Shown here: piece after piece, positions 1,451 to 58,246 of the stretch
Position numbering within the stretch: position 1 is the stretch's first letter
Layout: each line of letters begins with the position of its first letter
Source: Telopea speciosissima
Lineage: Eukaryota; Streptophyta; Magnoliopsida; Proteales; Proteaceae
Direction: 5' to 3'
DNA: 64,000 nucleotides
Assembly: GCF_018873765.1 (NCBI RefSeq)
Contig: NC_057919.1
Coordinates: forward strand, 67,326,984 to 67,390,983
The notes under the pieces: model-generated
The model's input: the letters and a program-made list of their open reading frames with translations, nothing else
The model's database searches: none
What the model was told of the DNA's origin: nothing
Position numbers and translations under genes: made by a program

Positions 1451-3200
1451 TTGTGGTAAACTTAGTTTCTCCATGAAACAATGAATCAAACGTCGATTGA
1501 CAAGCCAAATTTGCCAGGTAATCCACTGCCCTATCGCCTTCACGGTATGTGAAAGAAATCATTGGTTTACGAGAGTCAATCAACTCCAAAACTTCCTGAA
1601 ACCAGTACCATCCTTTTCAAAAACCACATTTTCTTTTTATAATGCAAAGCATTGTAGCCACAGAATCAGAGTTGGCATTGAACTCCGTAAACCTCAAACT
1701 CGACCAAAGCTTTAGCCCATCTCCCAACGCCCTAAACTCAACAATGGAGTTAGTACACTCATTGGTACACACATCCTCCTTATTCCTAATGATACCCCCA
1801 TCCCCTTCTTCTCTAGGGTTACCTTTGCATGCACCATCCACGTTGAGTTTAATTGAGGAAAAGGAGGGATCAGAACACCGGAATAGGCACTTTATAGGCT
1901 CTGGGAGGGTGAAAAATACCAGAAATTTGTAGAACAAGATTTTTCCTGAAAGAAGGGGACTTCACAAACGAAGAATAAAAAGGAATCTCTTTAACCCAAT
2001 TTCTAATTCCCTCCACTAGGTAGCTGGCCGAACAAGCCTTCTCCTCGTGTCTACGATTATTCATTTCTTTTCATAATTCCCATATTATGAAAGAGGGACG
2101 TAATCTTAACCACTCCACACAAGCTATTAACCGGAGCATGACTATGCCAAAATAATATCCTACTCCGCACATCCTGCAACGAGACGATCTCCACTTCACA
2201 CAGCTCAAAGAAGAAATCCAAACTTTGGACGCCGTACCACCTTCCACTAGACAATGATTCGTCGATTCACTCCTGGGGGACCCACAACACTGATACTTCG
2301 AAGCTAATGACACCCCCATCTTCATGATCGTGTCATTCGTTGGAACTCCCTCACTCAAGATCTATCAAGAGAAGAACTCAATCTTGGTGGGGGTCATTCG
2401 ATTCCAAAACCATTTAGCAAATGGTATTTTTGCCGAGACAATTCTGATTTCGTTCCACAAGGATTTAGTAGAAAATTTACTATCTCTCGCCGGAGTCCAA
2501 ACAAGGGTATCCTCCTTGTCAGACAAAAAAAACTTACGATTCATTAGGCTGTCACGTACATTGACTGAATCAATCTTAAGCAACATCTCTTCATTCTAGA
2601 TCCCTTCCACACTTATAACATCTTTAACACAAACAGATAAGTCAAGTTGAAGAGCTCCATCTATATAATCCACCAAAGCCCCCCATTCCGACCAGTTGTC
2701 CAGGCAAAAATTAATTTTTCATTTTCCAATGAACCACCGAGTTTTTGAAAGCAAGAATTCCTTATGCAGTAAAGCTCTTTTCCAAGAGGCCGACCCACCT
2801 TCTTTCAATCCTGCCAAAATAATATGCTCATTTTTTCAGATATTTTGCCTTAAATAAGGAGCACCACAGTGACTTTATTGACAAAGGTCTCCACAGGCCC
2901 TTGAAGCTCAAGGCCAAGCTTATGTCTTCTAAGCGACGGATGCCTAAGCCACCTTCCTTGATCGGTGTACACACCTTATTCCAACCCGCCCAGTGGTGTC
3001 ATTTGCCCCAATCAAATTGGCCCCGCAAGAAGTCAACATAAATACTGTTAAATCTTCTAACAACAGTTTTAGAGATATCCAAAGTTGAAATATTATGAAT
3101 AGGCATGGAGGCAAGCACATGTTTGAGCAACACCATTTTTGCACCTGAAGACAATAATTTCCCTTTCCAGCTAGCAACCTTCCTTCGCATTTAGCTAAAA
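1450..3200 (-). mobile_element. 5'-truncated LINE remnant (RT C-terminus, zf-RVT, RNase H)
   Basis: Three pieces in the expected order on the minus strand show a plant L1-type LINE. At 3190-2999 the tail of the reverse transcriptase reads SWKGKLLSSGAKMVLLKHVL. At 2586-2071 a zinc-binding reverse transcriptase domain (zf-RVT) shows DTLVWTPARDSKFSTKSLW and, in another frame, LASKYQCCGSPRSESTNHCL. At 1937-1617 an RNase H start reads LNVDGACKGNPREEGDGGII. The endonuclease and most of the RT are missing, as in 5'-truncated LINE copies. The pieces lie in different frames and are interrupted by stops, so this is a dead copy. The 3' end and any target duplication are not clear; the boundaries given are approximate. 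Confidence 0.85.
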
Positions 3201-5420
3201 AATATCAAAGAAATTAATGCGAAGTCGCCCAACATATCCATGGTAATTTGATATTGGTAAAAAAAAAAAAAAACACATGAATTCTACCTACTAGCCTATG
3301 AATATACTCTCTCAGCCTGTGAAATAAAAAATCCCATTCATTGGCTCCGCTCTGGTGTAGGGACTACATGAAACATGAGTATCATCATGAACTCTCGACT
3401 TCTACTATCGAAAGTCGGAAATACCCTTCTTTGGTTCAATCAAAAGGTCAACTAATGAGATCTAGCTATATTGGTCCATCAATAAATTATTGATGGAAGA
3501 AGAGTTTCACTTTTATATAACAAGTGGCTTATTCAGTTATTCCATATTGTTTAAAATAGGAAACCCGGTCAGAGATTCTCTCCATTTACTTGAAACTCCA
3601 ATCTGTCCACGTTGGAAATTGAAAGGAATTCAAGTAACATATGACCATTCCATAATCCTAAAAGTCAGTTAACCTTTTGGGATTGGTGTGTGATTGGTGT
3701 TTGATTACACTTTCATCAGAAAAAAAAAGAGTAATGTAAGACCTAAAATCTGACTGGACATAAAAAGAAATTCAAATTTCATAGTAGAAAGCATGCTGTA
3801 ACTGCCACGTAGGAAACAATCAATCACTAGGCGCATTAATAACATGGTTTGAAGGTGAATTGGCATCCAGAACCAGACAGCAAAGCAAAACTCCAACGTG
3901 GAAACAGAGAGGCACATTGATGACATGGCATGAGATAGTGCCAGCTGGCTACTTACGAGATTGTCGGAAACTTCAACTTTTAAAAGCCTTCGGATCGTGA
4001 GGTTAGAGGGAGCCTTTAAGGCAACCCCATCTATTTGCATGTGCCTTAATTAATATAACTTAAATAAAATATTTTTTTTATTATTATTTTTTGTTTTAAT
4101 TTCAGAAGAAGAAAAGTGCGAAGGATGATTGGGTGAAGGTGAAGCTGGTTAAAAGAGAAAGGAAAAACAAAAAAGGCATGATTCTTGTGCCTTAAAAGAG
4201 ACGTTACTTTCCGGCTTCTTTATCCCCATAAATATACTAACTACCTCTCTTCCTTTAAAAATGAGAAAAAGACAGATTTCTCCTCCCTCTTTTGGTCAAA
4301 TGATCAGTTCGTCCTCTTCTTGTATTTCCACCTACATCTAGGGTATCCAATGCTGGCATGCACCGGTAAGCAACCCGGTTTTGGGTTTAGCCCGATTATT
4401 GATTGGGTGGTTATTGCCGACCGCGGGATTCGTAGAAGACCTCTGGACTGTGTAGAATGATCCAACAAATGTAAAAAAAAAAGATCAGTTCGGTCAAACA
4501 TTGGTTATAACATTGAAATTGGATTTCCCTTGCCGAATTCACGTGAGACTTAGAACTAGAAGGAGGAGAAGTTTGAACCCGTATATCACATTGGTGGGAT
4601 CCATAAAAATTGTGTCGAATGTGATATGATCGAGAGAGCCCCTCTTTTAATTATGAATGGGATCACATCACGATAGGAATATTCGAGACCAATCGTTTGT
4701 ATCTCGATTAGCTTGGAATGCCCATTTAGCCCGATTATGTTTATGGTATGATTGTACTTTTGATTAGTCTATAACTCATTTAAAGTACAATTATAAACTG
4801 ATTACTATGAATTCAATTATGAATCGATAACCAATCGACTGAATAGAAATGTATTTATGCGTTGGCCTACATACCTAATTACCTAAACGATCGATAACGG
4901 TACAATCACAATGAAAAACTAATCCGTGAGACCGATTGAAACCCCTAAGGCTACATCCACATTTCTGTTCTTTGATTAACTACCATGAAGGGTAACCCTT
5001 ATCAATAAGGTCATGTACTTTGCCTGAACGGCCTCAAAATCTTTTCTAGATTTAGTATGTACATTCAAATCATACATCTTCAATTGAAATTGGTTAGTGC
5101 AAATGTTAGATGGAGACAAACATCTACTTTTAAGTTTTTTAAGTATAATAGGATTTCTACCCAAAAAGGAAAAAGTATAATAGGATTGAAGAATTAAAGG
5201 TGGAAATAAAATAACAGCAAGTACAAGGACAAAACGGTAAATGAACTTTAATAGAGTCTTATACTTAATGAATTCTTATCACCGGAAGTTGAACCCGGGA
5301 ACCCGTGATGGGTCACTGGCTATAGGCAGTGGGTGCCAAGCTTTTACCGGGTGGAGCCAGTGAAGGGTGTAAGGTCTTCGTTCCCTTTTAATTCGAGGGG
5401 TTGAGTTGTAGTTGTAGAGT
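3200..5420. other. Spacer and upstream region of the TPR gene
   Basis: No gene is visible. The stretch is AT-rich with several A runs (near 3260, 3720, 4470). The segment 5280-5430, just before the TPR gene, is less AT-rich and ends in a short GA repeat (about 5439-5455), which is typical of a plant promoter or 5' leader, but I see no firm core promoter element. Confidence 0.5.
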
Positions 5421-19000: not shown

Positions 19001-22000
19001 TCGAAAGTCGAAGTTTCCAAAAGAGGCAGTCTAAATTTCAATGATTTCTGTTTGGAACTTGAGGAATTAGTCATTGATGGGCCATTTTGCTGAATCTCAA
19101 CAGAGTTTGCACCAGCAATTGCATCCAAATGATGTTGATTATCACTAGATGAAGGACCAGTTTTCATTAGGGGTGCACCAATCATCACCGATGCAAACTC
19201 CATGCCTTCACGAATAGCTCCTGATGGACTCATGATGGATTTCTGTTTGGAACTTGAGGAATTAGTCATTGATGGGCCATTTTGCTGAATCTCAACAGAG
19301 TTTGCACCAGCAATTGCATCCAAATGATGTTGATTATCACTAGATGAAGGACCAGTTTTCATTAGGGGTGCACCAATCATCACCGATGCAAACTCCAAGC
19401 CTTCACGAATAGCTCCTGATGGACTCATAGAAGCACGGGTTTTTGGATCATGACTTCCCTTATGTGGTGACCTAATGAGATAACTAGAAACAGCCAGCCT
19501 TCTCTGCTGAGGTAATGTTCCAGTTTGCCTTCCCTGACGATTTAAATCTCCGCAATCTGAATCAAGGTCAAGCCCCATGTTAACTTTCTTTCCATCTAAA
19601 CCTCCTTGTGGAGAGCCATGTGTATGAACTGAAGGTTCTGCAGAAGTATAAACCGGAGACCTACTTGGGGTTTTCCTGGAGTAACTATTTGAAATTAACT
19701 TTTCTGCATCAGAGTAAGGGGATCGTGTGACAGTTCTTGAGTTAAATGTTGATCCATTATATTCTTTGTTGAGGTTGGATATAGTGTCAAATGGAATGGA
19801 TGTCCCACCACTAACAGCATCCTCAAAAGAAGCTCTATTACCCTGACAGCCAAAGTCCTCAAGGCCCTTTTTGTTTACATCATGAAAGTATAAGGCTTTA
19901 TCAGATCTTGTATCTTTTACAGGGGTCAGTAGCCTACTGTTACCAATAATATCTTTGGCAACATTTGACAAAACTTTAGGCGAGACATTTTTCTGATGGA
20001 TCTCTAACACTTCCCCCCTAGGCATGGGCGACTTGGAGGCCCTCGGAGTTCCAGTTAGGAAGCCGAAAGGGCACCCTGTGACATCTCTCCCTTCAAATTG
20101 CTTATTATCGCAATCCTCCCCAGTTTCTTCTTCAGAGTCCTTGGCTTCTGCTTCCATCATCTCTAACTCGTAAGTACTGTTTTTGTGAAGGGGGAAAAAA
20201 AAATTATTAAGTGTAGGAAGGTACAAAAATAGTCAGTGTTTATTCACTCTAAGAGATTCGATCCAAATATAAGAACATGGATTAGTGTTGTAAACTTAAT
20301 TAATGGATCACTCAGAGAATTCTACTCAATTCAAATATAAGAACATGGATTATTGTGTTGTAAATTTAATTAGCTGTAGACATGGGTTAACTTTTATGCA
20401 ATGCTCAATGTTAGGACATGAAAGCAAGCAGTTTTATATGCTGAATTGTCAAGATGATTAAAGTAACGCATGTTTCGTAAATTATGTAAACACACAAAAG
20501 CATAGATATGCATGACATCACATTTTCTTTTCGTATTCTACATACAGAACCCTAAAAACTAAAACAGTATCGTAAATGTTCAGCCTACAAAACTTAAAAA
20601 GTACCTTTTTCTTGAATAATCAAATTTTGTTTAATTCCAACACCAGATTACCATATACTTGATCCATATGATCAACAGTGTACTTCAGGTGCTGGATAGA
20701 ATCTATTGGAGTAAACAATACATATATTTGAATACTATACAACAACAACAACAACTTAGCCTTATCCCAGCTAAATGGGATGAGCTCTGTTCATATCTTT
20801 GGATACTATCACAGCTAAAAATAAAAATAAAACAATAACTAATCATTCAAATTTTGTAACTGTTAAGATATGTGTCACGATTGGGGGTTTGTCCCAATGT
20901 GATATAGTTGGTTTATATCTTTAGTTTCCTTTTTATCTTCCTAGCTAGTCTAGTACTGAAGTTAGAGTTGGAGTTAGACTAGGATACTAGGATTTCTATT
21001 TCTATTGCTGTTATATTTCAGTTTGATTAATATAAATAAGGAGGCTGACAGTAGATTATTCTGAATCTGTTGCACAGTTCTCCCATTCTCTCCACTTCTT
21101 CAGATTCTGGTTGGCAGTTTGAGGTTTTGTTACATGGTATCAGAGCGATGAAGAAGAATAAAAATTCTCCTATTGAGAAAAGGGAAGGTCTCTGCTAGTC
21201 TGGGGACAAAAAAACAAAAGGAAGGTTAGGCAGATTTTCTTCTCTGATTGCTGGTGTCCTTCGATTGTTCAAGGCTGCTGCTGAAACTCCTATCGAGTTC
21301 TCTTCCCATCAATTGCTGGTACCAAGTTGAAGATTTCTGGTTTTCAATGCTGATGGCATCTGCTGAATCTCTTATCCACTGCTACTGCAAGGCTGTAAAA
21401 GTTACAGTAGTCGTCATCCTTACTGATTTGCTTCTATCAATTTGATTTTTCTGAACTAGGGTTTATATGCTGATCAAACTTGTCATTGTCGCTGCTACTG
21501 TGTGGCTCGATTGATGGAATCGAAGGTATCTTTCTAGGTATCATGGTGTTCTGTTGGAATCGTAATAGAATTATTCGCTGCTTCCTCTAATTCGATCGAG
21601 TCTTGAGGTTGAAGACATTTGGGATTTACAAATTTTTTGAAGATTGGCACTTCCGTGACAATTATTTGCTACTGTGAGGCGAGACTTGATTATTAGATTT
21701 TTTGTGATGCTCATCCTTTAAGGTGCTGATTATTGGTGTTCATTCTTTGTCTATTTGTACTGCTACATGTGAGGGGGGGGATTGAAGAGCATTATTCTCT
21801 TATTTGCTCAAGTCTCAGCTCAAGAATATTTTTATCTGAAGATTACTATTATTTATTTGTTATGTCCTCAGCAATAATTTTATCTGTGAAGATGGTATTC
21901 AGCAATAATTCATATTTATTTGGTCCACAACAACTTGATATTGTGTGGTCCACAATAACCTATACTGCCTATCTGGTTCACAGTAACCAATACTACCTGT

Positions 22001-25000
22001 CTGGTCCACAGTAACCTATACTACCTATCTGGTTATTTGGTCTAAAGCAACCTAATGCTATCTGGTCCGTAGTAACCTATACTGCCCTTGTATCTGAGAC
22101 CTATGTTTGGGGCTCAATATCTGCCTTTGTTTGAGTAGAATACTACTTACTACTTGCCTTCCTTGAGAAGGACTTTTGATGTAGTTGTTGGATGCTTCAC
22201 TTTGACCTTTCTTTGGGAAGATTACTACCTACTACCTGCCGCTTATGATATAGTTGTTGGATGCTGCACTTTTATCTTTCGTTGGAAAGATTACCACTTA
22301 AACTTGCCTTCTTTGAGGATTGCCTTTGATATTTCTGTTGCTACTATGATATTGTGGATTGCGATTAGTGTTCACTACCGTCTTTTTTGCTCGTTGCTGA
22401 TTGGATTTATTCGACACGAAGATTATTTACTAAAGTTGCTAATGATTTGCTACTTGAATCAAGTTCTCCCTGTGCTCACTAGCATCTACGAATATTGTTT
22501 ATGCTCAAGAGTGATGTGGCTTTTAATATTTGTTCTTATTGGTCCAAGCTGGAGCCTTCTTTTGATATATGTACACTCCAGCATGAAGGGGAGTGTTAAG
22601 ATATGTGTCACGATTGGGGGTTTGTACCAACGTGATATAGTTGGTTTATATCTTTAGTTTCCTTTTTATATTTCTAGTTAGTCTAGTACTGAAGTTAGAG
22701 TTAGAGTTAGACTAGGATACTAGGATTTCTATTCCTATTGCTGTTATATTTCAGTTTGATTTATATAAATAAGGAGGCTGGCGGTAGATCATTCTGAATC
22801 TATCGCACAGTTCTCCCAATCTCTTATCTTCTTCAGATTCTGGTTGGTAGTTTGAGGTTTTGTTATAGTAACAATTCCCATGACATTCTCTTTTATTCAT
22901 GCATGACGATATTTACTCACTAATAAAGTTGACACAAAGAAAAACACTTGTGCAGGGAATAAGTACAGACATGTACCCCAACAAGAAAGGAAGACAAAAC
23001 CCTATGAGTTTCTAATGCTAAGAAAAACACTAAAACCATGCCTTACAATATTGTTGCCACATAAAAAAATAAAAATAATAACACCACACCTCTTGTCATA
23101 ATTATCTTCCGGGAGAATCTGCCATGCTCTTAAACTGCAAGAGAGAAATTTTTAATGAAGAAAATCCTCAATCAAAGAATACAACGAAACGAATTGGAGC
23201 ACATGGGCAGCATAATAATGAAAAGAAAGCCTTGAAAATAGAATTTATTTCAAACAAAGGATAAATAAGTACAAATAGTACCAGTCTTCCAACCACCGAT
23301 GATTGACGAGTTTTATCTTCTTCATTTTCTTTGCAAGCTCATATTTCTCTCCTAGATCAGAATGACCAAACCACCATTCAAATTAGATTTCTACTAGTTA
23401 TAGGAAACAAAATACTTGATAGTGAATACACACACTCACCCACTTAACACTAACACTAACAGTAAATTAACAAAATGTCAAGGATAATACTTTGTTAAAC
23501 ACCTTAGGGAAACTCTTTGACATTCTATTTTATGGAATTTGGCCACGTAAGGCATTGTTTCATACCACTTTCAGACTTTCAATTATGAAACATCTCTAGA
23601 TAATAATTTATTTACGATAAAACGTATGTAATATTCAGGAGTTTCTGTTCATCAAGTGCAGTCCTTTCATGTGCACCCATGAGGATAAAATTATTAAAAA
23701 TAATGGTGAAACACCAAAACCCACCAATATCTGTGGATGCATTACAATTGCATAAGTTTATGTTTAGCATAATGGAACAATTGGAGATGTATGGTACTTC
23801 ACCCATCAATATAGACCAGAAGTTGAAAACTGGCAATGAGCCCTTCATACTCCAAAGAGATATTCAATGTTAGCCATAGATGGTAGGGTTCCAATAAGTG
23901 TGGATGGTTCTTGGATACAACCGTTAAACTTCATAGTAGCACAACAATGTCCACCTCAAGAATTGGATGTTAATATATGAAAAGCTATATGGATTAAAAG
24001 ATTACACAAGTATAACAAAAAGATGAGAAATGAAAGCAGAACCCGTTGACTAAATAGCTTCCTTAACTATTTTAAAATGTGACATGTTCACAGGAGTAAC
24101 GAAATCGCACCCTCAAATTTGTAACATATAAGATGGGTAACTTTATTCGCAATTAGTGGCTTGGAGAACTGTGCGCCCATCATGACTACCATTTTCTGAG
24201 AACCAAAACAAAAGCAAAAAATAATATCATTAACTCTTGTCACGGAAAGATCGCCAACTTATTCTCTGTAGCTTTTGGAATCATATGAAGAGGTGGCAGA
24301 TACATGAAGTAATAAGAATAGAAGTTGTGAAACATAAAGGAGAAAATGGTATACCATAATATCTTCTCGATCTTGCCTTTGATATCCTGTCAAGCACACA
24401 AATAGAGATTTGGCATCCGGTATTCCATTCAAATCTTTTAAAGGTCTGTACAAAATCTGAGGAAATGAAATTACAAAATTAGAAAAATAGAATACATACG
24501 AGCTCAAAGTAAACTGAGAAAAATAAACAGAGAAATAGGAAGAAGCAATCACTGAAGAGAAACAACTTAAAGGAAGGCATATGTGATGACATGTCCAGAG
24601 CAGGTAGACCATAAATCGAATAAGAAGCATCATTGCTGAAATGCTTCAGCTATGAACTAAGAGCTGCTTCAAATCTATTTGAACCCATAAAATCATGATA
24701 ACATATCTGAAACTAATTCCATTAAAAAAAAAAAGTAAATTGCTAGGTTCAATGAGCTCTAAATTGTAAACATCTGTCATTATAATATTCATAGGAAAGA
24801 CCGACCTATCGAATAAATTTAGTTACAATTTCAGCTTTGAAAATTGAAGTAGCTTGTAAAGAGTTATAACTAGCAACTTTCCCTCATAAAGTCTCAACCA
24901 TGTTGAGATATAGAAAAGGGTGCGTGAAGCTGAAAAACTGGATCATGACAGATATCAGTTAATCAACCCATTGGCAAGAACTCCAACATGATTGATGAAG

Positions 25001-26764: not shown

Positions 26765-27472
26765 GATTAGAAGTGTAAAGTCAAAAAAGCTCTAAACAGT
26801 CATAATTTATTGACGACGTCTCATGTTCTCTACCGTTGGATGGATATTATGATCATTCGTTCTGCAGGCTATTGTTTGTACACGTGTCAGGATAAGAATC
26901 CGACGGTGAAGCCAACGTACAAATCTTAACAGGACCCACATGCCAGTGTGGATTTGTGAACGTCCGATTGCAATCAACGCAACCTGCTATGTCTCGCTTG
27001 TGAACCGGAGTCAAAGCGAACCGTTTTAAAGCGTAATCGAATTGAAATAACTTCCTTTGTTTAGCTTAGGCTACGTTTGGTAAATGTCTGAACAAAGAAC
27101 GGACTGAACAAAGAACGTCCGTTCTTGACTAAAAACGTTCTTTGGCGTTCTTCATCTAGAACGCGCTCGAGACCAAAAATGACTGTTTGGTAACGGTCTC
27201 AAGAACGCCGTTTAGAACGAAAATGATGTTTGGTAAAACCTGTTCTTCCTTATTTGATGTTAATTACAATACTGCCATTTCCTTCTAAATTACACCAAAA
27301 AATACTTGTAATTTTTTTTATCTCTTACCATCATTAGCATAAAATTAAAATATCTCATTAACATAACCAAAGTAATTATAAAATATGCCAAATTTATAAA
27401 ATGCCATTAAAATTGGGTTCTTGTGTGGATTAGTGTCATAACTGACAATGCTATGAACAGTTGAATAAAAAT

Positions 27473-27551
27473 TAGGTCTTGGTGGATTCGAACCACCAAC
27501 CCCTTGGAATGAGCATGTTCCAAGTGCTCTACCAATTTGAGCTAAAGACCC
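27473..27551 (-). tRNA. tRNA-like gene in element A, abnormal anticodon arm
   Basis: The minus strand begins GGGTCTTTAGCTCAAATTGG and ends GGTTCGAATCCACCAAGACC. Acceptor (GGGTCTT with AAGACCT, one G-U end pair), D arm (GCTC/GAGC) and T arm (GGTGG TTCGAAT CCACC) all form, and the A and B boxes are good. The anticodon arm is wrong: CTTGGAA CATGCTCA TTCCAAG has seven stem pairs and eight loop bases. No normal anticodon can be assigned. It is more likely a tRNA-derived module than a working tRNA. Confidence 0.6.
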
Positions 27552-28026
27552 ATCAAGTACTCATTGATTAGGGGACACAGGACAAAGTATTGTTAATTAA
27601 TTTACTATGTTCTTCCCAGTGGTACTTCCCAGCTAGGACCACCAGTCTATACATGCAAAAAGCATACAATCTGGTCAGCTTGTAAACAGAATGGATCCAT
27701 CACAACCCTATAATTCAGAAATCACTGATTATGGTGGCACTATTGTCTAACAGAATGGATCCATCACAGCCCTATAATTAAAAAATCATCTATTAGGCTT
27801 AGTAGGAGAAGAAAAGAACTATATGTATAAAAGAAACAGTAAAAGAAAGACAAAGGTTATGCTCTTCGCTTAACTAAATGAAAGTAGTTTCAATTTTGAT
27901 ACTTCAGGTCAAATAGCCATTGTATTCGCAGTAAAAAGAAAGACAAAAGGTTATGCCCTTCGCTTAAATAATTTGCAAAGAAATCATATGACATGCTTTG
28001 AATGCCCAGCAAGTAAATCTTTATGG

Positions 28027-28822
28027 TCATGTAGCTGTTTTACAAACGATTTTTCCATGACATTGAGGAAATAGGCTGTGCTTCTCATCTGTCCATTCTG
28101 TGAACATAGATCCCGCCATCTGAAAGCCCAACATAAGATTAACAATGGGAGACCAAGATGAAATTTTAAGGAAGCTGATAGGGAAATACATGGGAAAATA
28201 TTTACTATTTTCTGCTACACAAGGAGGTAAAATTTGGTAGAACAGTCCCAATAATTATTTTCAGTTCAAAGAACCAATGGATTTCTGACAATCTTTTGAC
28301 GAATCTACACTCACTAGATCCACTTGATTGAACTTCCTTATCTACTCTAAAAGCTATCCAAAAAAAAATAAAAGGAAAACAAATTTGGGGGTAGTTTAGT
28401 ATACATAGAAATTAGGAAAATTCAATATAACTGCATTCCCAATTTCTTATCTTAAAGCAAATAACAGAGATTATTCGTATTACATTGATTTCTCAAAGAA
28501 AGTGTAACTTCACAGTTTCACGTTCACAACCCTAACATGGAAAAGTAAGAAACACACAAATGAAAGAAAAAAAAAATTGATCAAACGACCAAAACCCATC
28601 CGATCCATACCCTAAGAAATCTCAAATGGGAAAGAGGAGAATAGAGTCAAGAAGGTTTACCAAGCCGTCCATTTCTTCTTCTTCTTCTTCAACAAGAGTT
28701 CTGAAATTGTCTCCGGTGAGCCCAGATGTCTCGGAGCCCATTGTTCTTCTGCAACTACCTTCCATGGTTGGATCCGATGAAGACGGTGGCATCTCTTGAT
28801 TGAGATTCCAATTCCCTTCCAT
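28027..28822 (-). pseudogene. COR27-like gene copy captured in element A
   Basis: Exon 1 (28822-28661, 54 codons, MEGNWNLNQEMPPSS to EEEMDGL) is followed by a GT donor. A second exon starts at 28119 after a CAG acceptor and reads FTEWTDEKHSLF. In the next frame it continues FLNVMEKSFVKQLHDHKDLL, ending at a TGA before 27995. The motif W-T-D-E-K-H-x-L followed by xxMExSFVxQL is the signature I know from cold-regulated COR27/COR28-like plant proteins, which act as night-time repressors in clock and cold control. The motif is split by a 1-nt frameshift near 28070, and the rest of the usual C-terminus is missing. The intron is kept, so the copy was made at DNA level. It lies wholly inside element A, in the reverse direction. 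Assignment rests on the short motif. Confidence 0.65.
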
Positions 28823-28858
28823 TATTATCTAAATAAAGCAAAGCTTCTTACGAAGAGA

Positions 28859-29130
28859 AAGAGAGAGAGAGAAGCAAGAATAGGGCGCAAGGGCTACGCT
28901 ACTATTTAAGCGAGAGTGAGAGATGGCGAGAGACAGAGACAGAGAGTCAGGGAGGAAGCGAGAGAAAGAGGGATAGAGAGCGAGAGAGAGAGAGAGAGAA
29001 GCAAGAATAGGGCGCAAGGGCTACGCTACTATTTAAGCGAGAGTGAGAGATGGCGAGAGAGAGAGACAGAGAGTCAGGGAGGAAGCGAGAGAGAGAGGGA
29101 TAGAGAGCGAGAGAGAGAGAGAGAGGAGAT
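28859..29130. repeat. Duplicated GA-rich block at the right arm of element A
   Basis: A unit of about 127 bp containing AAGCAAGAATAGGGCGCAAG and GCTACGCTACTATTTAAGCG occurs twice in tandem (about 28867-28993 and 28994-29120), each ending in GA repeats. TATTTAAG could be a TATA-like box for minus- or plus-strand transcription, but this is not demonstrable from sequence alone. Confidence 0.85.
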
Positions 29131-29827
29131 CGACCTGCAAGTTCGCCTCCTCCTCCTCTTCCTTTCCCCCCAGATCTGCCTTTGTGTTTTCTGCGTTTTT
29201 GGGTTTTTTTGGTTGTCTTCGAGGTTGCTCACAACTTTTGATCGTGAATCGCGATGACTTGCGTTCTTTGTTCTTTGCAGATCGTCCTTTTGTCAAAGAT
29301 TTTTTCCGGTTCATTCTTAAAGAACAAAAAAAGGAACCGTCAAGCCAAACAGAAAATGGCGTATTTTTGTTCTTAAAGAACGAAAAAACGAAAATACAGT
29401 TCTAAACACTGTTCAGACATTTATCAAACGTAGCTTTAGGCTGCGTTTGGTAACGGTCTGAACAAAGAATGTCCGTTTTTTACTAGAAACGTTCTTTTAC
29501 GTTCTTGGTCTAGAACGGCGTTCTGAGACCAAAAATGACCGTTTGGTAACGTTCTCAAGAACGCTGTTCAGAACGAAAATGGTGTTTGGTAAAATCTGTT
29601 CTTTCCTATTTGATATTAATTATAATAATGTCATTTCTTTGTCAATTATACCAAAAAAAGATTTGTAAAATCCTTTTCTCTTACCAACCTTAGCATAAAA
29701 TTAAAATATCCCATTAACATAACCAAAGTAAGTATAAAAAGATGCCAAATTTCAAAGATGCCATTAAAATTAGGTTCTTGAGTGGATTAGTGGCATAACT
29801 AACTATGCTATGAACAGTTGAATAAAG

Positions 29828-29908
29828 AGGGCCTTGGTGGACTCGAACCACCATCCTCTTGGAACATGCTCATGTTCCAAGTGCTCTACCAATTTGAGCT
29901 AAAGGCCC
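29828..29908 (-). tRNA. tRNA-like gene in element B, hairpin in place of anticodon loop
   Basis: This is the second copy of the same module. The acceptor stem GGGCCTT/AAGGCCC is perfect, the T arm GGTGG TTCGAGT CCACC is perfect, and the D arm is intact. In place of an anticodon arm there is a nearly closed hairpin CTTGGAACATG-AG-CATGTTCCAAG. A Pol III transcript is plausible from the A and B boxes; decoding is not. Confidence 0.6.
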
Positions 29909-31971
29909 ATCAAGTTGTCAATGAATTAACACAACAGATTAAACCAAATTATATTCTCCATTCTTTTGGATTCTAGAAAGCCAGGAGATTCCATAGACTG
30001 GATGATCTTAACTAACTGAAGCACTTGGCTATTTTGGACATGAGAAGTAAAGAAATTTTTTGTTTTTCAAAGAAAAGGCAATTAGTACAAACAAAAAAAC
30101 TTAGGCTCACAGTGCCTAGTTTATTAGATTCAACCACATTAGTTAGATACTTAACACAAGTTTGCTACCTTGTATTGTTCAATCCGTTTTTTCACAGCTA
30201 CCCTGTGCTAATCTCATCTTGTGAAAGCTAGCTTTTGGTTCAAATGTTCCATCCAACATATTTAGTTTTAAAAATTCTGCTCCTACCGTATATCACGAAG
30301 TATGATTTTTCAAACATTCTTCATTGATACTCCGGACTCAAACAAATTTTATTAAGCTAGAGACGATCATGAAAGTAAACAAAAAAAAGGGGAGGGGGAA
30401 GAAAGAAAGAAGGAACATATATAATGGTCAGCATGAAATCACAATTTCCTAGTTGTGGAATAATGCAGGAAACAATAGGAGACTGATTCTGGAAACATCT
30501 TGATTTGTCTACGATGATTCGTGTAGGCGATTTCACATGAAGATGACGATCGCAAAGAATCTATCTTAAAGCTACTATTCGGCTTTGTGTTTGCTTTGAT
30601 TACGAGATGACAAAACAATATCTGGCTTTGTGTTTGCTTTGATTTTATTGCTTTTCTTTTGGTTTATTTATTGAAAGAGAGCCGCAAAATTGAGCTACAG
30701 GCATGTAAATGGTTTTGGGAGAAGGTTAACAAGCGCCATATGAAAAAACGTATTACATTACAATGGAAGGCGGTAGGAAGATACTGAGACAATTGCTAGT
30801 TTATCCTATAGCAGAGATCGGGAAAACCTTTTCCCAATAGTTTTATGACCTTCAAGGGATGGTATATATATATTTGCAGTAAAAAGAACTGTCCTGGATA
30901 TGTTAAAAACATATTTCCGATTGAGAAGGTTTGGTTCATCTGTTGGGATTGAGTATGCCTTTCAAGATGAGGTGAGACCTGGGTCTTTTTCATGTGCAGT
31001 ACAACTATGTCCATACAGGTAGTTCAACCCAGTTCCTCTTCATGCTGACATAATATGCTCGTGTCATAGTCGAATTTCCCAAGATTCCATGAAAAAAAAC
31101 CAATTATTTCACATAACCACCATTACAATAGAGCTTCTTAAGCTGGAAGATGATTACTCATTCCTCTTATTTCCCTAGGATTAGTTTATTGAAGCAGGGA
31201 TAGAAAAAGATCCCAAATTATGCCTATGATTTGTAGGCCCAACATAATTAATGGCACAAACAACTAGACAACTAAGAGAAAAGAAGGGTTCTACCAAATA
31301 AAAAAAAGAGAGAAAAGAAGGGATCATGTCTGTAAATTGAATAACAACCCAAGACAGACCTTTGTGCATATGTAATAAAAGGGAAAAAAGAGAAACCAAG
31401 TGCAATGTGTTGATAAATCGGAAGAGATGGAGAAAAAAATGCATAACACAGAACGGAAATGGAGAAGAAGTACCTATAAAAAAAAAATGGAGAAGAAGTT
31501 TGGTAAGCGATCTGTGAGAGATGAAAATCTCACAACAATCGGCCTAAACTTCAAAACGTTACGATTTCGGAAAAAATCGGCCAGCAATCACAAATTTCAA
31601 ACATTACACCATAAATCATACATCAACGCATGAAAAACATTACAGAAAAAATCGGAAAGAAAAACGAAGAACAAAGACGAGATTTTCTAAAATCGAGCGG
31701 ATCAAAATCCCTCTTGGAAAACCTAATCTGAAAAACTAAATCGAAAACCCAATTGGGAACCACACGGACTTAAACGAAAGTCACAAGAATGATAACCTAA
31801 TTAGAGAGAGAGAGTCACCTTCTTGTTGTCAACTTGATTGCGAGAGGGGATCGTGCTAGAGAGGACCACTGTAGCAGAAACCTTCAAATGTTAGGGATGT
31901 TGCTCCAAATCCTGAGACACAAGGGAGAAAAATCGATAGAGCCCTAATCAGATCTTCGTCCCAACAAACGA

Positions 31972-32002
31972 CCGAGAGAGAGAGAAACAGAGAGAGCGAG
32001 AG

Positions 32003-32053
<51 letters not shown>

Positions 32054-32150
32054 GTGAGAGCTAGAGAGAGCAGAGAGAGGAAGCGAGAGAGCAGAGAGAG
32101 GAAGCGAGAGAGAGAGGGATAGAGAGCGAGAGAGAGAGAGAGAGAGAGAT
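31972..32150. repeat. GA microsatellite in the right arm of element B
   Basis: Almost pure GA repeats with short AGCGAGAGAGCAGAGAGAGG variants. The open frames reading Leu-Ser runs on the minus strand are products of the repeat. Confidence 0.9.
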
Positions 32151-32699
32151 CGACCTGCAAGTTTCGCCTCCTCCTCTTCCTTCCCCCAGATCTGCCTCTT
32201 TTTTTTCTTTTTGTTTTGGTTGTCTTCGAGGTTGCTCACGCTTCATGGATCGTGAATCGATGACTTGCGTTCTTTGTTCTTTGCAGACCGTTTTCAAGAT
32301 TTTTCCGTTCATTCTCTAAAGAACAAAAAATGAACCGTCAAAATCAAACACTTTTTTATATTTTTTTGTTCTTTTTAAACAAGAGAACTGTTCAGAACAC
32401 TGTTCTGAACGTTACCAAACGCACTCTTAGCATGAGAGAAGAGACCCGGCCGATACTACCCTAACGGTTGAAACGAAAATAATTTCGAAGTTCGCCAACA
32501 TAAACCATAAGGATCCTCGCGAATCATCTCAGCGCATCAGATCAAAGATCCGGATCCAGCGCGGGAAGCGTAAGGGCCGTTTCGATCGTTTTGGTTTTGG
32601 TCGCAAATATTGCATCCACGTCCACTTCCATGGACTGGTAGTATAGAAAAGAGAAACTATTCTCATGATTCGATTTCTTATCGAGCTAATTCCGGGGAT

Positions 32700-34859
32700 A
32701 TGAGAGGGTTTTCATCTGTTGCTTCCAGAGTATCTATTGTTAGCAGAGATATAAGCGAAGGAATCTGCAAAACGAGAAGCTCCAACGGCGACAAATCGGT
32801 TTATGGAAGAACAAAAATAGCCCCCATTCAAAAACCAACAAGTTCAGAAACTCCACTAACAGGCAAGTCTTCTTCTTTCAGTCCTTCCCAGATACCTGAT
32901 TCTCATTTCAACTTGCTTTCAACTGCAAGTAGCATTTCTGGTAATCGACACGAGATATCCACTATCTCGATTGATCATCAATACTTTTCTGCAATACTTG
33001 ATAGGAAGGATTGGTTTATCTTGCTAAATCACGAGTTCAATTACACAAAGACCAGTTTGACTCCACAGTTTGTTGTAAGAATACTGCAGCATCAGGAAAA
33101 CCCATTGCACTCACTCAAATTTTACATATGGGTTTCAAATGTCAAGGAGACGCTGGTGAATAATCAATTAGTACGGAGAGCTTTAGCTCATGCTCTGTAT
33201 CATAAGGGTCCCGTAGTGTTGTCTGTTAACTTGCTTCAAGAGATTAACAACTCTGGGTGTCGCATTTCTGAGGACCTGCTTTGCGCTTTAATTGGTAGTT
33301 GGGGAAGGTTAGGGCTTGCCAAGTATTGTGCTGAAGTTTTTGGGCAGATTTCACTCCTGGGTCTCACTCCAACTACTCGATTATACAATTCACTTATTGA
33401 TGCATTAGTGAAATCAAATTCCCTTGATTTAGCTTATCTCAAATTCCAGCAGATGCCCGTTGATAATTGCATCCCTGACAGATTCACGTACAACATTCTC
33501 ATCCATGGGGTCTGCAGGATTGGAGTTGTTGATGAAGCGCTTCGTCTGGTGAAGCAGATGGAAGGCTCAGGTTACTCCCCTAACGTGTTCACGTACACAA
33601 TCCTCATTGATGGGTTTTGTAACGCAAAGAGGGTGGATGAAGCCTTTCAGGTTTTGGAGATGATGAGGCAGAGGAATGTGAGCCCTACTGAAGCCACATT
33701 TAGGTCATTGGTTCACGGTGTCTTTCGATGTACAGACGTGCATAAAGCATATGAGTTGTTACTGAAATTTTTAGAAAGCAAGCCTATTTTGTGCAAACAA
33801 TCTTGTGATGCCGTACTTGATTGCCTTTCAAAGAATTTTATGCCAAATGAGTCCATGGAGTTCTTAAGAAAGATGGAACAAAAAGGTTATCTTCCAGACA
33901 GTTCAACATTTAACATTGTGATGTCTTGTTTGATGAAGGGTGTGGATCTGAATGAGGCTTGCAAGGTACTGGATGGTTTTATTGAGAGAGGTGGGAAGCC
34001 ATGTTTCAGCACTTATCTCATGTTTATTGAAGTTTTGTACAAGGCAGGAAGAACTAATGAAGGGGACAGATATTTAAATCAGATGGAGCAGGATGGACTT
34101 GTATCAACTGTATCTTCATATAACATGTTGATCGACTGTTTTGCCAAAGCCAAAATGATGGACAAAGCATCGCAGAAATTTGGAGATATGCTTCAAAGAG
34201 GTGTTGCTCATAATCTTGTTACTTTTAATACCCTTATTGATGGCCACTGCAAAGTTAGGGAGGTAGGTAAGGCTAGAAAACTGTTGAAGACGCTATTAGA
34301 CTATGGTTTCAAACCTGATGTCTTCACCTTTAGTTCAATAATGGATGGTCTTTGCCGGGTCCACCAGATGGAAGATGCTTTTGGTTGTTTTGATGAGATG
34401 GTTGAATGGGGTGTTTCTCCAAATGCTGTCACATATAATATCCTGATTCGGTCTCTCTGTTTTGTTGGGGATGTTGCTAAAGCGATTAAGTTATTGAGAA
34501 AGATGAAAGATGCTGGAATAAAGCCAGATGTGTTTTCTTTCAATGCTCTTATTCTAAGTCTTTGTAGGATGAAGAAAATTGACAATGCGCAAAAGCTTTT
34601 TGTTTCCATGTTGAGAGTGGGCGTTACACCAGACAAACTTACGTATGATGCTTTTATTAAGGCATCATGTGAATCAGGAAGAGTTGATGAGGCTAGACAG
34701 ATGCTTCTCACCATGGAATACAATGGATGTTCTCCAGATTCTTATTCGTACACACCAATTATAGAATCTCTAACCCATTTGGGTCGCTTGGAGGAGGCCC
34801 ATGATTTAATCAACAAAAATGAAAGAGGAACTCTTATGAACTCCATTCCTAATTCATAG
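32700..34859 (+). CDS. PPR40: Mitochondrial PPR protein, PPR40-like
   Basis: A single intronless frame gives 719 residues from the ATG at 32700; an in-frame ATG 30 codons upstream (32610) is possible, but the Arg/Ser-rich MRGFSSVASRVSIVSR makes a better mitochondrial presequence start. After about 100 residues comes LDRKDWFILLNHEFNYTKTS and SLKFYIWVSN, then SWGRLGLAKYCAEVFGQISL and NSLDLAYLKFQQMP, phrases I recall from Arabidopsis PPR40 (At3g16890). About a dozen 35-residue P-type PPR motifs follow (for example FTYNILIHGVCRIGVVDEAL, VTFNTLIDGHCKVREVGKAR). No E or DYW domain is present. PPR40 is known to associate with respiratory complex III and to affect stress and ABA responses. The gene starts about 270 bp from TIR element B. 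Confidence 0.88.
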   Translation: MRGFSSVASRVSIVSRDISEGICKTRSSNGDKSVYGRTKIAPIQKPTSSETPLTGKSSSFSPSQIPDSHFNLLSTASSISGNRHEISTISIDHQYFSAILDRKDWFILLNHEFNYTKTSLTPQFVVRILQHQENPLHSLKFYIWVSNVKETLVNNQLVRRALAHALYHKGPVVLSVNLLQEINNSGCRISEDLLCALIGSWGRLGLAKYCAEVFGQISLLGLTPTTRLYNSLIDALVKSNSLDLAYLKFQQMPVDNCIPDRFTYNILIHGVCRIGVVDEALRLVKQMEGSGYSPNVFTYTILIDGFCNAKRVDEAFQVLEMMRQRNVSPTEATFRSLVHGVFRCTDVHKAYELLLKFLESKPILCKQSCDAVLDCLSKNFMPNESMEFLRKMEQKGYLPDSSTFNIVMSCLMKGVDLNEACKVLDGFIERGGKPCFSTYLMFIEVLYKAGRTNEGDRYLNQMEQDGLVSTVSSYNMLIDCFAKAKMMDKASQKFGDMLQRGVAHNLVTFNTLIDGHCKVREVGKARKLLKTLLDYGFKPDVFTFSSIMDGLCRVHQMEDAFGCFDEMVEWGVSPNAVTYNILIRSLCFVGDVAKAIKLLRKMKDAGIKPDVFSFNALILSLCRMKKIDNAQKLFVSMLRVGVTPDKLTYDAFIKASCESGRVDEARQMLLTMEYNGCSPDSYSYTPIIESLTHLGRLEEAHDLINKNERGTLMNSIPNS

Positions 34860-51119: not shown

Positions 51120-51192
51120 GGGGATGTAGCTCAGATGGTAGAGCGCTCGCTTAGCATGCGAGAGGTACGGGGATCGATACCCCGCATCTCCA
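51120..51192 (+). tRNA. tRNA-Ala (AGC)
   Basis: A 73-base cloverleaf: acceptor GGGGATG/CATCTCC (one G-T pair) with discriminator A; D arm GCTC/GAGC; anticodon arm GCTCG CTTAGCATG CGAG-like with anticodon AGC in TTAGCAT; T stem CGGGG/CCCCG with loop ATCGATA. A box TAGCTCAGATGG and B box GGATCGATACC are present. No intron. It carries no CCA, as expected in nuclear DNA. Confidence 0.96.
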
Positions 51193-57520: not shown

Positions 57521-57672
57521 TTCTTTGTGATCGCTTTTGCTTCTCTTTGACTGCATTGTCTCCTGGTGATTGTTTGCGCGTTGATACTCTCTGACCCTTG
57601 ATAGTCATGGGATTTTGGTAGTGGCGTCGTGCCTTGGTGATCCTCGGACCTTGGTTGGTTAACGCCTTAGCG

Positions 57673-58246
57673 TAGAGCCTCGGTGTTGGCATGACGCCTT
57701 AGGCACACGGCCTCAATGTTGGCGGTCGCCTTAGGCATACGGCCTCGGTGTTGGCATGTCGCCTTAGGCACTGAAGCCTCGGTGTTGGCATATCGCCTTA
57801 GGCATGAAGCCTCGGTGTTGGCATATCGCCTTAGGCATGAAGCCTCAATGTTGGCATATCGCCTTAGGCATAAAGCCTCAGTGTTGGCATGTCGCCTTAG
57901 GCATAAAGCCTCAGTGTTGGCATGTCGCCGTAGGCCTGAAGCCTCAGTGTTGGCATATCGCCTTAGGCATGAAGCCTCAGTATTGGCATGTCGCCTTAGG
58001 CATGAAACCTCAATGTTGGCATGTAGCCTTAGGCATGAAGCCTCAGTGTTGGCATATCGTCTTAGGCATGAAGCCTCAGTGTTGGCATGTCGCCTTAGGC
58101 ATGAAGCCTCAGTGTTGGCATGTCGCCTTAGGCATGAAGCCTCAGTGTTGACATGTAGCCTTAGGCATAAAGCCTCAATGTTAGCATGTCGCCTTAGGCA
58201 TGAAGCCTCAATGTTGGCATGTTGCCTTAGGCATAAAGCCTCAGTT
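57673..58246. repeat. 33-bp tandem array, about 17 copies
   Basis: The unit is TTGGCATATCGCCTTAGGCA plus TGAAGCCTCGGTG, 33 bp, with small substitutions and a few 31- or 34-bp units at the left end. GCCTTAGGC in each unit is nearly palindromic. Because 33 is a multiple of three, long frames are open on both strands (for example HANTEASCLRR repeats on the minus strand); these are repeat products. The array lies between integrase and the LTR, where Tat-group elements commonly carry tandem repeats. Confidence 0.93.

Follow-up and report, generated by a model that had tools for sequence, protein, structure and literature searches.

Two flush elements with terminal inverted repeats (TIRs), A and B, lie in the order TTA-A-TTA-B-TTA in the window analysed here, a 64,000-nucleotide stretch of the waratah (Telopea speciosissima) genome, and the DNA between them is TTA alone (Table 1). 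The TIR arms of A (27065-27094 and 29410-29439) and of B (29442-29464 and 32401-32423) are 90% and 91% complementary, respectively, and TTA stands at all three predicted sites, so that the side-by-side TTA-flanked TIR elements proposed by the first-pass annotation are borne out. That annotation had given the common ends as about 480 and 330 bp; the left arm agrees (476 bp, 86% identity, E 5e-156; A 30-499 aligns with B 14-486, the offset coming from 16 extra bp near the left end of A), whereas the right arm is longer, 420 bp at 78% identity (E 4e-87), and extends into a GA-rich tract. The central interiors, described as unrelated, gave no alignment passing E 1e-3. A head-to-tail pair of this kind would arise if one element inserted into the TTA flanking the other.

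Table 1. Features of the pair of elements, in window positions
Feature	Position	Strand	Remark
TTA, left target-site copy of A	27066..27068	.
Element A, 2367 bp	27069..29435	+
Left TIR of A	27069..27094	+	inverted-repeat comparison
tRNA-like gene without normal anticodon loop, A left arm	27473..27551	-	RF00005, 53.8 bits
Presumed captured peroxidase: intron 2 end and exon 3 start	27610..27686	-	A 542-618, 97% to C7 locus
Presumed captured peroxidase: second copy of exon 2 start	27685..27724	-	A 617-656, 98%
Presumed captured peroxidase: intron 1 end and exon 2 start	27722..27845	-	A 654-777, 94%
Presumed COR27-like capture: exons 1 and 2 (the latter in part), the intron and some of the 5'UTR	27992..28885	-	94% to C5 locus
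COR27-like exon 2, part	27996..28119	-	A has a frameshift that donor and three sister copies lack
COR27-like exon 1, ATG retained	28661..28822	-
GA-rich tract with 127-bp tandem duplication, right-arm start of A	28855..29128	.
Right arm and right TIR of A	29136..29435	+
TTA common to A and B	29436..29438	.
Element B, 2988 bp	29439..32426	+
tRNA-like gene, B	29828..29908	-	RF00005, 55.2 bits
B interior, without Pfam domain, repeated whole or in modules elsewhere	29940..31900	-
Degraded snoR109 H/ACA snoRNA in B	31495..31552	-	18.4 bits, cut-off 34 bits (RF01206)
GA-rich tract, right-arm start of B (limits approximate)	31976..32155	.
Right TIR of B	32401..32426	-
TTA, right target-site copy of B	32427..32429	.

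The elements had also been said to lack a transposase, and our scans agree: the six-frame Pfam scan of the B interior was empty, and of the three A peptides that were searched, the COR27 piece being among the searches, two had no match and one gave an MH1 match below the cut-off (14.8 against 25 bits). Six-frame scans of two related copies, L042 and L032 (the latter of the same type as A), returned zero domains each, and that of L036 returned two matches, both under the cut-off and neither a transposase. Judged from target duplications and TIRs only, placement in a PIF/Harbinger-like Pack-TYPE family is supported; the TIRs presumably resemble known PIF/Tourist ends.

The family across the genome

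All 40 scored matches of the left arm, A included, were positive (40 scored of 1426 candidates); they lie on contigs C1-C11 and C981, and the family is thus present on all 11 large contigs. A right end is recognisable in 17 of the 20 loci fetched, and 16 of these 17 copies have identical 3-bp flanks: TTA or TAA on both sides in 15, CAA/CAA in one, and unequal flanks in the remaining copy (L046). No right end was found in the fetched stretches of the other three loci (L038, L048 and L050). These three stretches contain retrotransposon-like reading frames.

The paired ends were expected to recur elsewhere around varied interiors, and this is what we find; the ends are constant, the interiors differ between loci, and element length ranges from 2.1 to 4.1 kb. 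Since 16 of the 17 copies combine paired ends with equal 3-bp flanks, chance is ruled out. Some types are nested, the L033 type resembling the L042 type minus about 1.26 kb and L036 being collinear in segments with L042. One copy, L047, bordered by the CAA repeat, interrupts the right TIR of another family member; its flanks, once joined, align over the junction to the termini of L039 (83%) and L031 (81%), thus restoring a family terminus and providing an empty site. Neighbours of the same family in the same orientation were seen twice, as A-B and as X-L047 (one of 29 left flanks surveyed).

Most left arms examined carry a tRNA-like gene, which exceeds the RF00005 cut-off in A, B and 24 of 29 further loci. 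No anticodon could be assigned to the genes of A and B, where the standard anticodon arm is absent. We rejected a role for the gene as a conserved functional part because some of 29 copies compared have deletions in the anticodon or T arms; widespread yet decaying, it looks like a passenger.

Host sequence in element A

The outer cargo of A is a rearranged fragment of a peroxidase-72-like gene with a likely donor on contig C7, where exon 2, intron 2 and exon 3 are continuous (641 bp read). Another candidate donor, C1:7674200, was set aside as a paralogue, its DNA identity being 75-76% and the C7 locus closer. Peroxidase pieces occur in A and in 17 of the 20 loci, and no match was found in B, X, L036, L048 or L049. 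About 180 bp of donor sequence is missing from the piece in A and all 17 of these loci, and the start of exon 2 is repeated in A and 15 of the 17. At the jumps within the A piece, read by eye, 2-3 bases are common to both sides; microhomology of this length is near chance expectation, and the rearrangement could instead be a later duplication plus deletion. In the COR27-type and exon-1-type copies the peroxidase pieces are 91-99% identical to C7.

Further inside lies the COR27-like fragment, carried by A and by three of the 20 loci (L031, L032 and L039). Its likely donor, on contig C5, is annotated as cold-regulated protein 27-like of Telopea, and comparison of 3.2 kb at this locus against seven elements found no element arm. 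The four copies are 93-95% identical to C5; 24 substitutions set all four apart from it, and each copy has 9-15 of its own. The piece thus entered once and then multiplied, although some of the 24 common differences may be changes that the C5 gene underwent after capture. That the peroxidase piece came first is suggested by its wider distribution, not by age, since its divergence is not clearly above that of the COR27-like copies. Retention of introns in the A inserts shows that DNA, not mRNA, was copied. A short truncated COR27-like reading frame, with splicing inferred, is open in three of the four copies, and such frames are a possible source of new regulators. We also considered a TIR remnant beside the COR27 junction; the match is only 7 bp (GGCTACG), lacks TTA/TAA, and was judged to be chance.

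The interior of element B and related loci

The B interior, or parts of it, recurs in at least 63 match rows genome-wide (40 of 149 candidates scored). It includes a degraded snoR109, which we take from its Rfam description to be a small nucleolar RNA; no host donor of this segment was found among the genomic matches scored, C10:46149329 being the leading candidate for one. An intact snoR109 (56.7 bits) is present in element X, whose interior is partly common to B. At least 13 genomic matches exceed the snoR109 cut-off (53 of 39,262 candidates scored); eight of these 13 lie inside B-interior matches, of which the arms were not read, and two more in X and in a related locus, L055. In L055, snoR109 is joined to an acyl-CoA-binding-protein (ACBP) exon, and the ACBP part begins within the exon at C5:2995527, the likely donor gene of that insert. 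The same gene was rejected as the source of snoR109, since the 186 bases read upstream contain no match to it. Along with the cargo, a gene for a small RNA has been spread, whole or for the most part.

The first-pass claim of a gene-capturing, non-autonomous PIF/Harbinger type with host-gene cargo is thus supported for A, with its likely donors on C5 and C7, and for the related locus with the ACBP exon; for B no donor was found, and the element displays a degraded snoR109 only.

Discussion

We consider it about 90% probable that A and B belong to a single large Pack-TYPE family that is non-autonomous and PIF/Harbinger-like, in which host sequence was captured and then spread by transposition. 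Whatever DNA the arms enclose would be mobilised by a transposase supplied from elsewhere. Where a break occurs or a fork stalls within an element, repair might copy an unlinked gene through template switching, so that the new cargo would sit innermost, with the left arm to one side of it and the GA-rich right arm to the other; the resulting chimera could then transpose and multiply.

The capture route, by fusion of neighbours or by template switching within TIR elements, is the point at issue. In the fusion model (Catoni; Gisby and Catoni), two neighbouring insertions enclosing host DNA merge, and a pair such as A-B would be the precursor. Same-family neighbours in one orientation were seen twice here, and the main text of the report that proposed the model (PMC8903248) gives one orientation for 12 of 13 local PIF pairs in maize. 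A-B, however, encloses only TTA, the peroxidase piece is rearranged internally, the 3.2 kb at the C5 locus holds no arm sequence, and, apart from one 3-mismatch match in the B left arm, neither A nor B has a recognisable internal TIR. We therefore regard fusion as a possible source of the cargo, though a rather unlikely one.

For B in particular, the interior might be an unrelated mobile element that inserted into the copy, in place of captured host DNA, as its wide recurrence and the lack of an identified host donor would allow. Against this, it encodes no mobile-element protein in Pfam, and most of the above-cut-off snoR109 matches fall within B-interior matches, in X or in L055; such an origin seems unlikely to us. 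Still less can be said for the notion that the copies descend by different deletions from a single long ancestor, with interiors that are leftovers, not captures. The nesting of the L033 and L042 types and the collinear segments of L036 and L042 fit it, but the A interior matches intron-bearing host genes on other contigs, the 3.2 kb read at the C5 locus lacks an element arm, and the peroxidase piece is unmatched in B, X, L036, L048 and L049. Overall it is very improbable, and for A simple deletion is contradicted by the donor genes. Segmental duplication of a gene-rich segment would explain the several hundred bp common to multiple copies, but the ends are flush, 16 of 17 copies have 3-bp duplications and an empty site exists, which leaves it a negligible probability.

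Among known systems, Tourist-like MITEs share with the Telopea family TTA duplications, TIRs starting with GG and self-nested insertions, but are much shorter and not known to carry host-gene cargo. Pack-MULEs, of the Mutator superfamily, make 9-bp target duplications, against 3 bp here. As mentioned in PMC8277862 and PMC8903248, Pack-MULEs likewise capture and amplify gene fragments in plants. Closest are perhaps the Pack-PIF elements that Gisby and Catoni (2022, PMC8903248) describe in maize and rice, in the only report of the searched literature to contain the term Pack-PIF, in line with the rarity that the first-pass annotation had ascribed to PIF/Harbinger elements with cargo. Like the Telopea family, the elements described in the main text of that report are non-autonomous, make TTA/TAA duplications, keep constant ends around fragments of host genes and have same-orientation neighbours; successive internal insertions are also described, as in cluster 18 of maize, where a gene fragment of 163 bp is accompanied by a further one of 58 bp. 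Unlike them, the Telopea elements are 2.1-4.1 kb long, enclose fragments that measure about 200 to 900 bp, introns included, and have snoRNA cargo and a left-arm tRNA-like gene, the word 'tRNA' being absent from that main text. The part of the literature covered by our search yielded no description that we recognised as matching, either of tRNA inside MITEs or Harbinger elements or of snoRNA with Pack-MULEs.

Animal Pack-TIRs resemble the Telopea family in having host DNA captured inside TIR elements and short microhomology (PMC8277862); unlike it they are mostly single-copy, and 'Harbinger' is absent from the main text of that report. The FoSTeST model given there derives multicopy animal Pack-TIRs from fork stalling and template switching, followed by transposition (PMC8277862). 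What is unusual in the Telopea family is that captures are layered, that snoRNA is among the cargo and that a tRNA-like module is present. This one family combines near-identical cargo and its likely donors with mutations both common and private, with captures in layers and with an empty site, and the capture route is thus directly testable in it. The waratah genome illustrates how host sequence is acquired and spread by TIR elements.

A bolder extension, which we think quite doubtful, is that the family acts as a capture machine with a hot spot, a cargo slot between the tRNA-like gene and the GA-rich tract at which fork stalling would feed template switching. If so, one element family would repeatedly acquire protein-gene fragments and small-RNA genes. 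Features of both kinds are known to stall replication forks. In several lineages the cargo changes start beside the tRNA-like gene, about 7-16 bp beyond it in the B and L036 types; the peroxidase junction lies about 60 bp beyond it.

Results

The two adjacent elements of the window, A and B, lie flush and in one orientation, with TTA to the left of A, between the two and to the right of B. Their TIR arms are 90% complementary over 30 bp in A and 91% over 23 bp in B; the left arms of the two elements share 86% identity across 476 bp, their right arms 78% across 420 bp, whereas the interiors have no match at E 1e-3. The first-pass annotation had described just such a side-by-side TTA-flanked pair with common ends and dissimilar interiors, and the three TTA copies and these alignments bear it out. 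No further family copies were found across the 64-kb window. A PPR-like (pentatricopeptide-repeat-like) open frame of 719 aa, named from its look, begins ~270 bp right of B, placing the pair within its upstream region.

Coordinates of the elements, their cargo and neighbouring features (window positions unless a contig or locus is named)
Feature	Position	Strand	Remark
Element A	27069-29435		2367 bp, TTA-flanked
Element B	29439-32426		2988 bp, TTA-flanked
Class III peroxidase pieces (cargo)	~540-777, A-internal	minus	
COR27-like cargo in A	27992-28885	minus	part of 5'UTR, exon 1, intron, part of exon 2
COR27-like gene	C5:56462968-56463800		
More distant COR27-like place	C4:18865022-18865990		
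Insert in COR27-like intron	L032 element 1500-3350		~1.85 kb
Related locus L055	C1:35002900-35004000		right-arm sequence, then snoR109 segment, then ACBP piece
Tandem tRNA-like genes	L010, 1866-1946 and 1985-2065		
PPR-like frame	32700-34859	plus	
tRNA-Ala gene	51120-51192	plus	
272-bp direct repeat	20861-21132 and 22594-22865		93% identical, 1.7 kb apart
Tandem array	57660-58245		

The expected recurrence of the ends elsewhere also held. In the genome (822,943,500 bases, 1287 contigs; the window is C4:67326984-67390983) the 482-bp left arm drew 1426 candidates, and all 40 that were scored matched, A included, spread over contigs C1-C11 and C981. The best-matching half of the loci outside A (20 of 39) was examined, each as an 8-9.4-kb stretch; the right end was recognised at 17, and none was found inside the stretches of L038, L048 and L050. 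Identical 3-bp flanks border 16 of these 17 copies (8 TTA, 7 TAA, 1 CAA), the sole exception being L046 with CTA and TTA. Among the 29 loci L002-L030, the left terminus was recognised by pattern in 27 and is preceded by TTA or TAA in 25. Beyond the left arms of L038 and L050 are frames resembling LTR-retrotransposon reverse transcriptase, and beyond that of L048 a retro- or pararetrovirus-like one, all judged by appearance. L048 and L050 also contain direct repeats in tandem, of 660 and 560 bp respectively. L044, a 3.8-kb member on the small unplaced contig C981 (7982 bp), has almost the match pattern of L045.

One member, L047 (3739 bp, CAA on both sides), interrupts the right TIR of a second one, called X, whose orientation it shares. 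L047 is an insertion, because its flanks, joined with a single CAA, rebuild a complete family terminus and so form an empty site; the joined sequence aligns across the junction to L039 (183/221 identical) and to the L031 terminus (187/231). Same-orientation neighbours thus occur at least twice, as A-B and X-L047, the latter being the one such case when 1.5 kb was surveyed at each of 29 left flanks.

The left arm holds a tRNA-like gene, scoring 53.8 bits in A and 55.2 in B, with no anticodon assignable in either and an anticodon stem lengthened into a near-palindrome. It is above cut-off in 24 of 29 further loci, with deletions in several, a count biased upward because the loci were recruited with the very arm that holds the gene. 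We read it as a passenger from the founder element. L010 carries it duplicated in tandem; an ordinary tRNA-Ala gene lies elsewhere in the window.

Peroxidase pieces are present in A and in 17 of the 20 loci; none were found in L036, L048, L049, B or X. Exon 1 is kept additionally in L038 and L050 (PF00141, cut-off 27 bits: L038 passes with 29.1, L050 falls short with 19.8). The best-named relatives, among proteins of up to 297 residues, are peroxidase 72-like. A 75-residue search (92/92 candidates scored) gave eight places at 93-100% identity. Three of these coincide with left arms already known or adjoin them: those on C1 (L038) and C5 (L050) and, by its position, the one on C11. At another of the eight, on C7, exon 2, intron 2 and exon 3 run uninterrupted across the 641 bases read, matching the pieces at 94-99% in A, L031, L032, L038 and L050 and at 83-99% in the remaining loci. 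Judged from these 641 bases, the C7 locus is probably the donor or its nearest kin; C1:7674200 was rejected as a paralogue at 75-76%. Some 180 bp of C7 sequence is absent from A and all 17 loci. In A and 15 of the 17 the start of exon 2 is repeated, by a jump back of ~66 bp and then forward of ~207 bp; L046 and L047 have no separate repeat. By reading of the sequence, the jumps in A have 2-3 bases in common.

The COR27-like peptide was found at six places in the whole genome (15/15 candidates scored): A, L031, L032, L039, a gene on C5 and a more distant place on C4. The 221-residue protein read from C5 matches, at 100% identity, a part of the 293-aa Telopea speciosissima protein named 'cold-regulated protein 27-like', and the C5 locus runs on through the remaining exon 2 and exon 3. 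Among matches above 40 bp, the cargo is all that 3.2 kb of this locus has in common with seven elements. The C5 locus is the donor or the donor's nearest kin. The introns of cargo and gene match; therefore DNA was copied. Within an 895-column block, 24 substitutions set all four copies apart from the C5 gene, and each copy has 9-15 private ones (K2P 0.042-0.050 to C5, 0.025-0.034 among copies). Some of the 24 may be later changes in the C5 gene itself; the pattern is nevertheless the one left by a single capture and later spread. The spliced reading (splicing inferred) is open in L031, L032 and L039 until a stop three codons beyond the junction, and frameshifted in A. The insert within the L032 intron is without Pfam matches. 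A therefore records two captures, a widespread peroxidase outside and a restricted COR27-like fragment inside.

A six-frame scan of B's interior found no Pfam domain, but the interior is repeated in the genome. With 40 of 149 candidates scored, there are at least 63 match rows and, besides B, at least 9 nearly complete matches, at least 3 that are interrupted by gaps yet otherwise complete, and several that cover it in part. X has it partly in common (74% over 663 bp) and carries the H/ACA snoRNA snoR109 at 56.7 bits; B's copy is degraded (18.4 bits, cut-off 34). With 53 out of 39,262 candidates scored, at least 13 genomic matches exceed the cut-off, and none of 14 control genomes matched. Eight of the 13 lie within B-interior matches, identified by their interiors, one is X and one L055; the other three, at C10:46149329, C8:22334331 and C1:1254397, are unassigned. 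It thus seems that a gene for a small RNA, whole or nearly so, has been spread by the family. L055 is tied to the family through right-arm sequence internal to the terminus. Its snoR109 is full-length (70.5 bits), and its ACBP piece starts inside an exon, with 42 residues identical to the acyl-CoA-binding protein gene at C5:2995527 (388-residue open frame; PF00887 31.9 bits, cut-off 28.3; 6/6 candidates scored). Genomic searches with B's interior and snoR109 found no host donor of this segment. The earlier proposal of a gene-capturing family holds for A, with likely donors on C5 and C7, and lacks a donor for B's interior.

Discussion

Insertion with target duplication, constant arms and captured host DNA in A are demonstrated, as is, for the COR27-like cargo, a single capture with later amplification. 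Transposase from elsewhere would mobilise the elements, and host DNA would be captured via template switching in repair or replication, similar to the FoSTeST model proposed for animal Pack-TIRs (PMC8277862). We give this capture route a probability of roughly 0.55. Cargo might instead be gained by fusion of neighbouring insertions (PMC8903248), a route the same-orientation tandem pairs A-B and X-L047 would suit; however, the C5 locus gives it no support and the peroxidase piece order is scrambled, and we consider it rather unlikely. A 2026 review restates fusion for Pack-CACTA and allows that unlinked fragments might have arrived by an undiscovered route (PMC13317346). More speculatively, and as our boldest reading, the stretch from the tRNA-like gene to the GA tract might be a hot spot for capture.

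Since Pack-PIF elements, which have TTA/TAA duplications and gene fragments gained internally step by step, are already described in maize and rice (PMC8903248, the one source using that name in the literature searched), the Telopea family is best taken as a member of this known kind. Unusual in it are the layered cargo, the snoRNA cargo and the tRNA-like module.

Elsewhere in the window, the 272-bp direct repeats are possibly the ends of another element, and the tandem array has long open frames on both strands.
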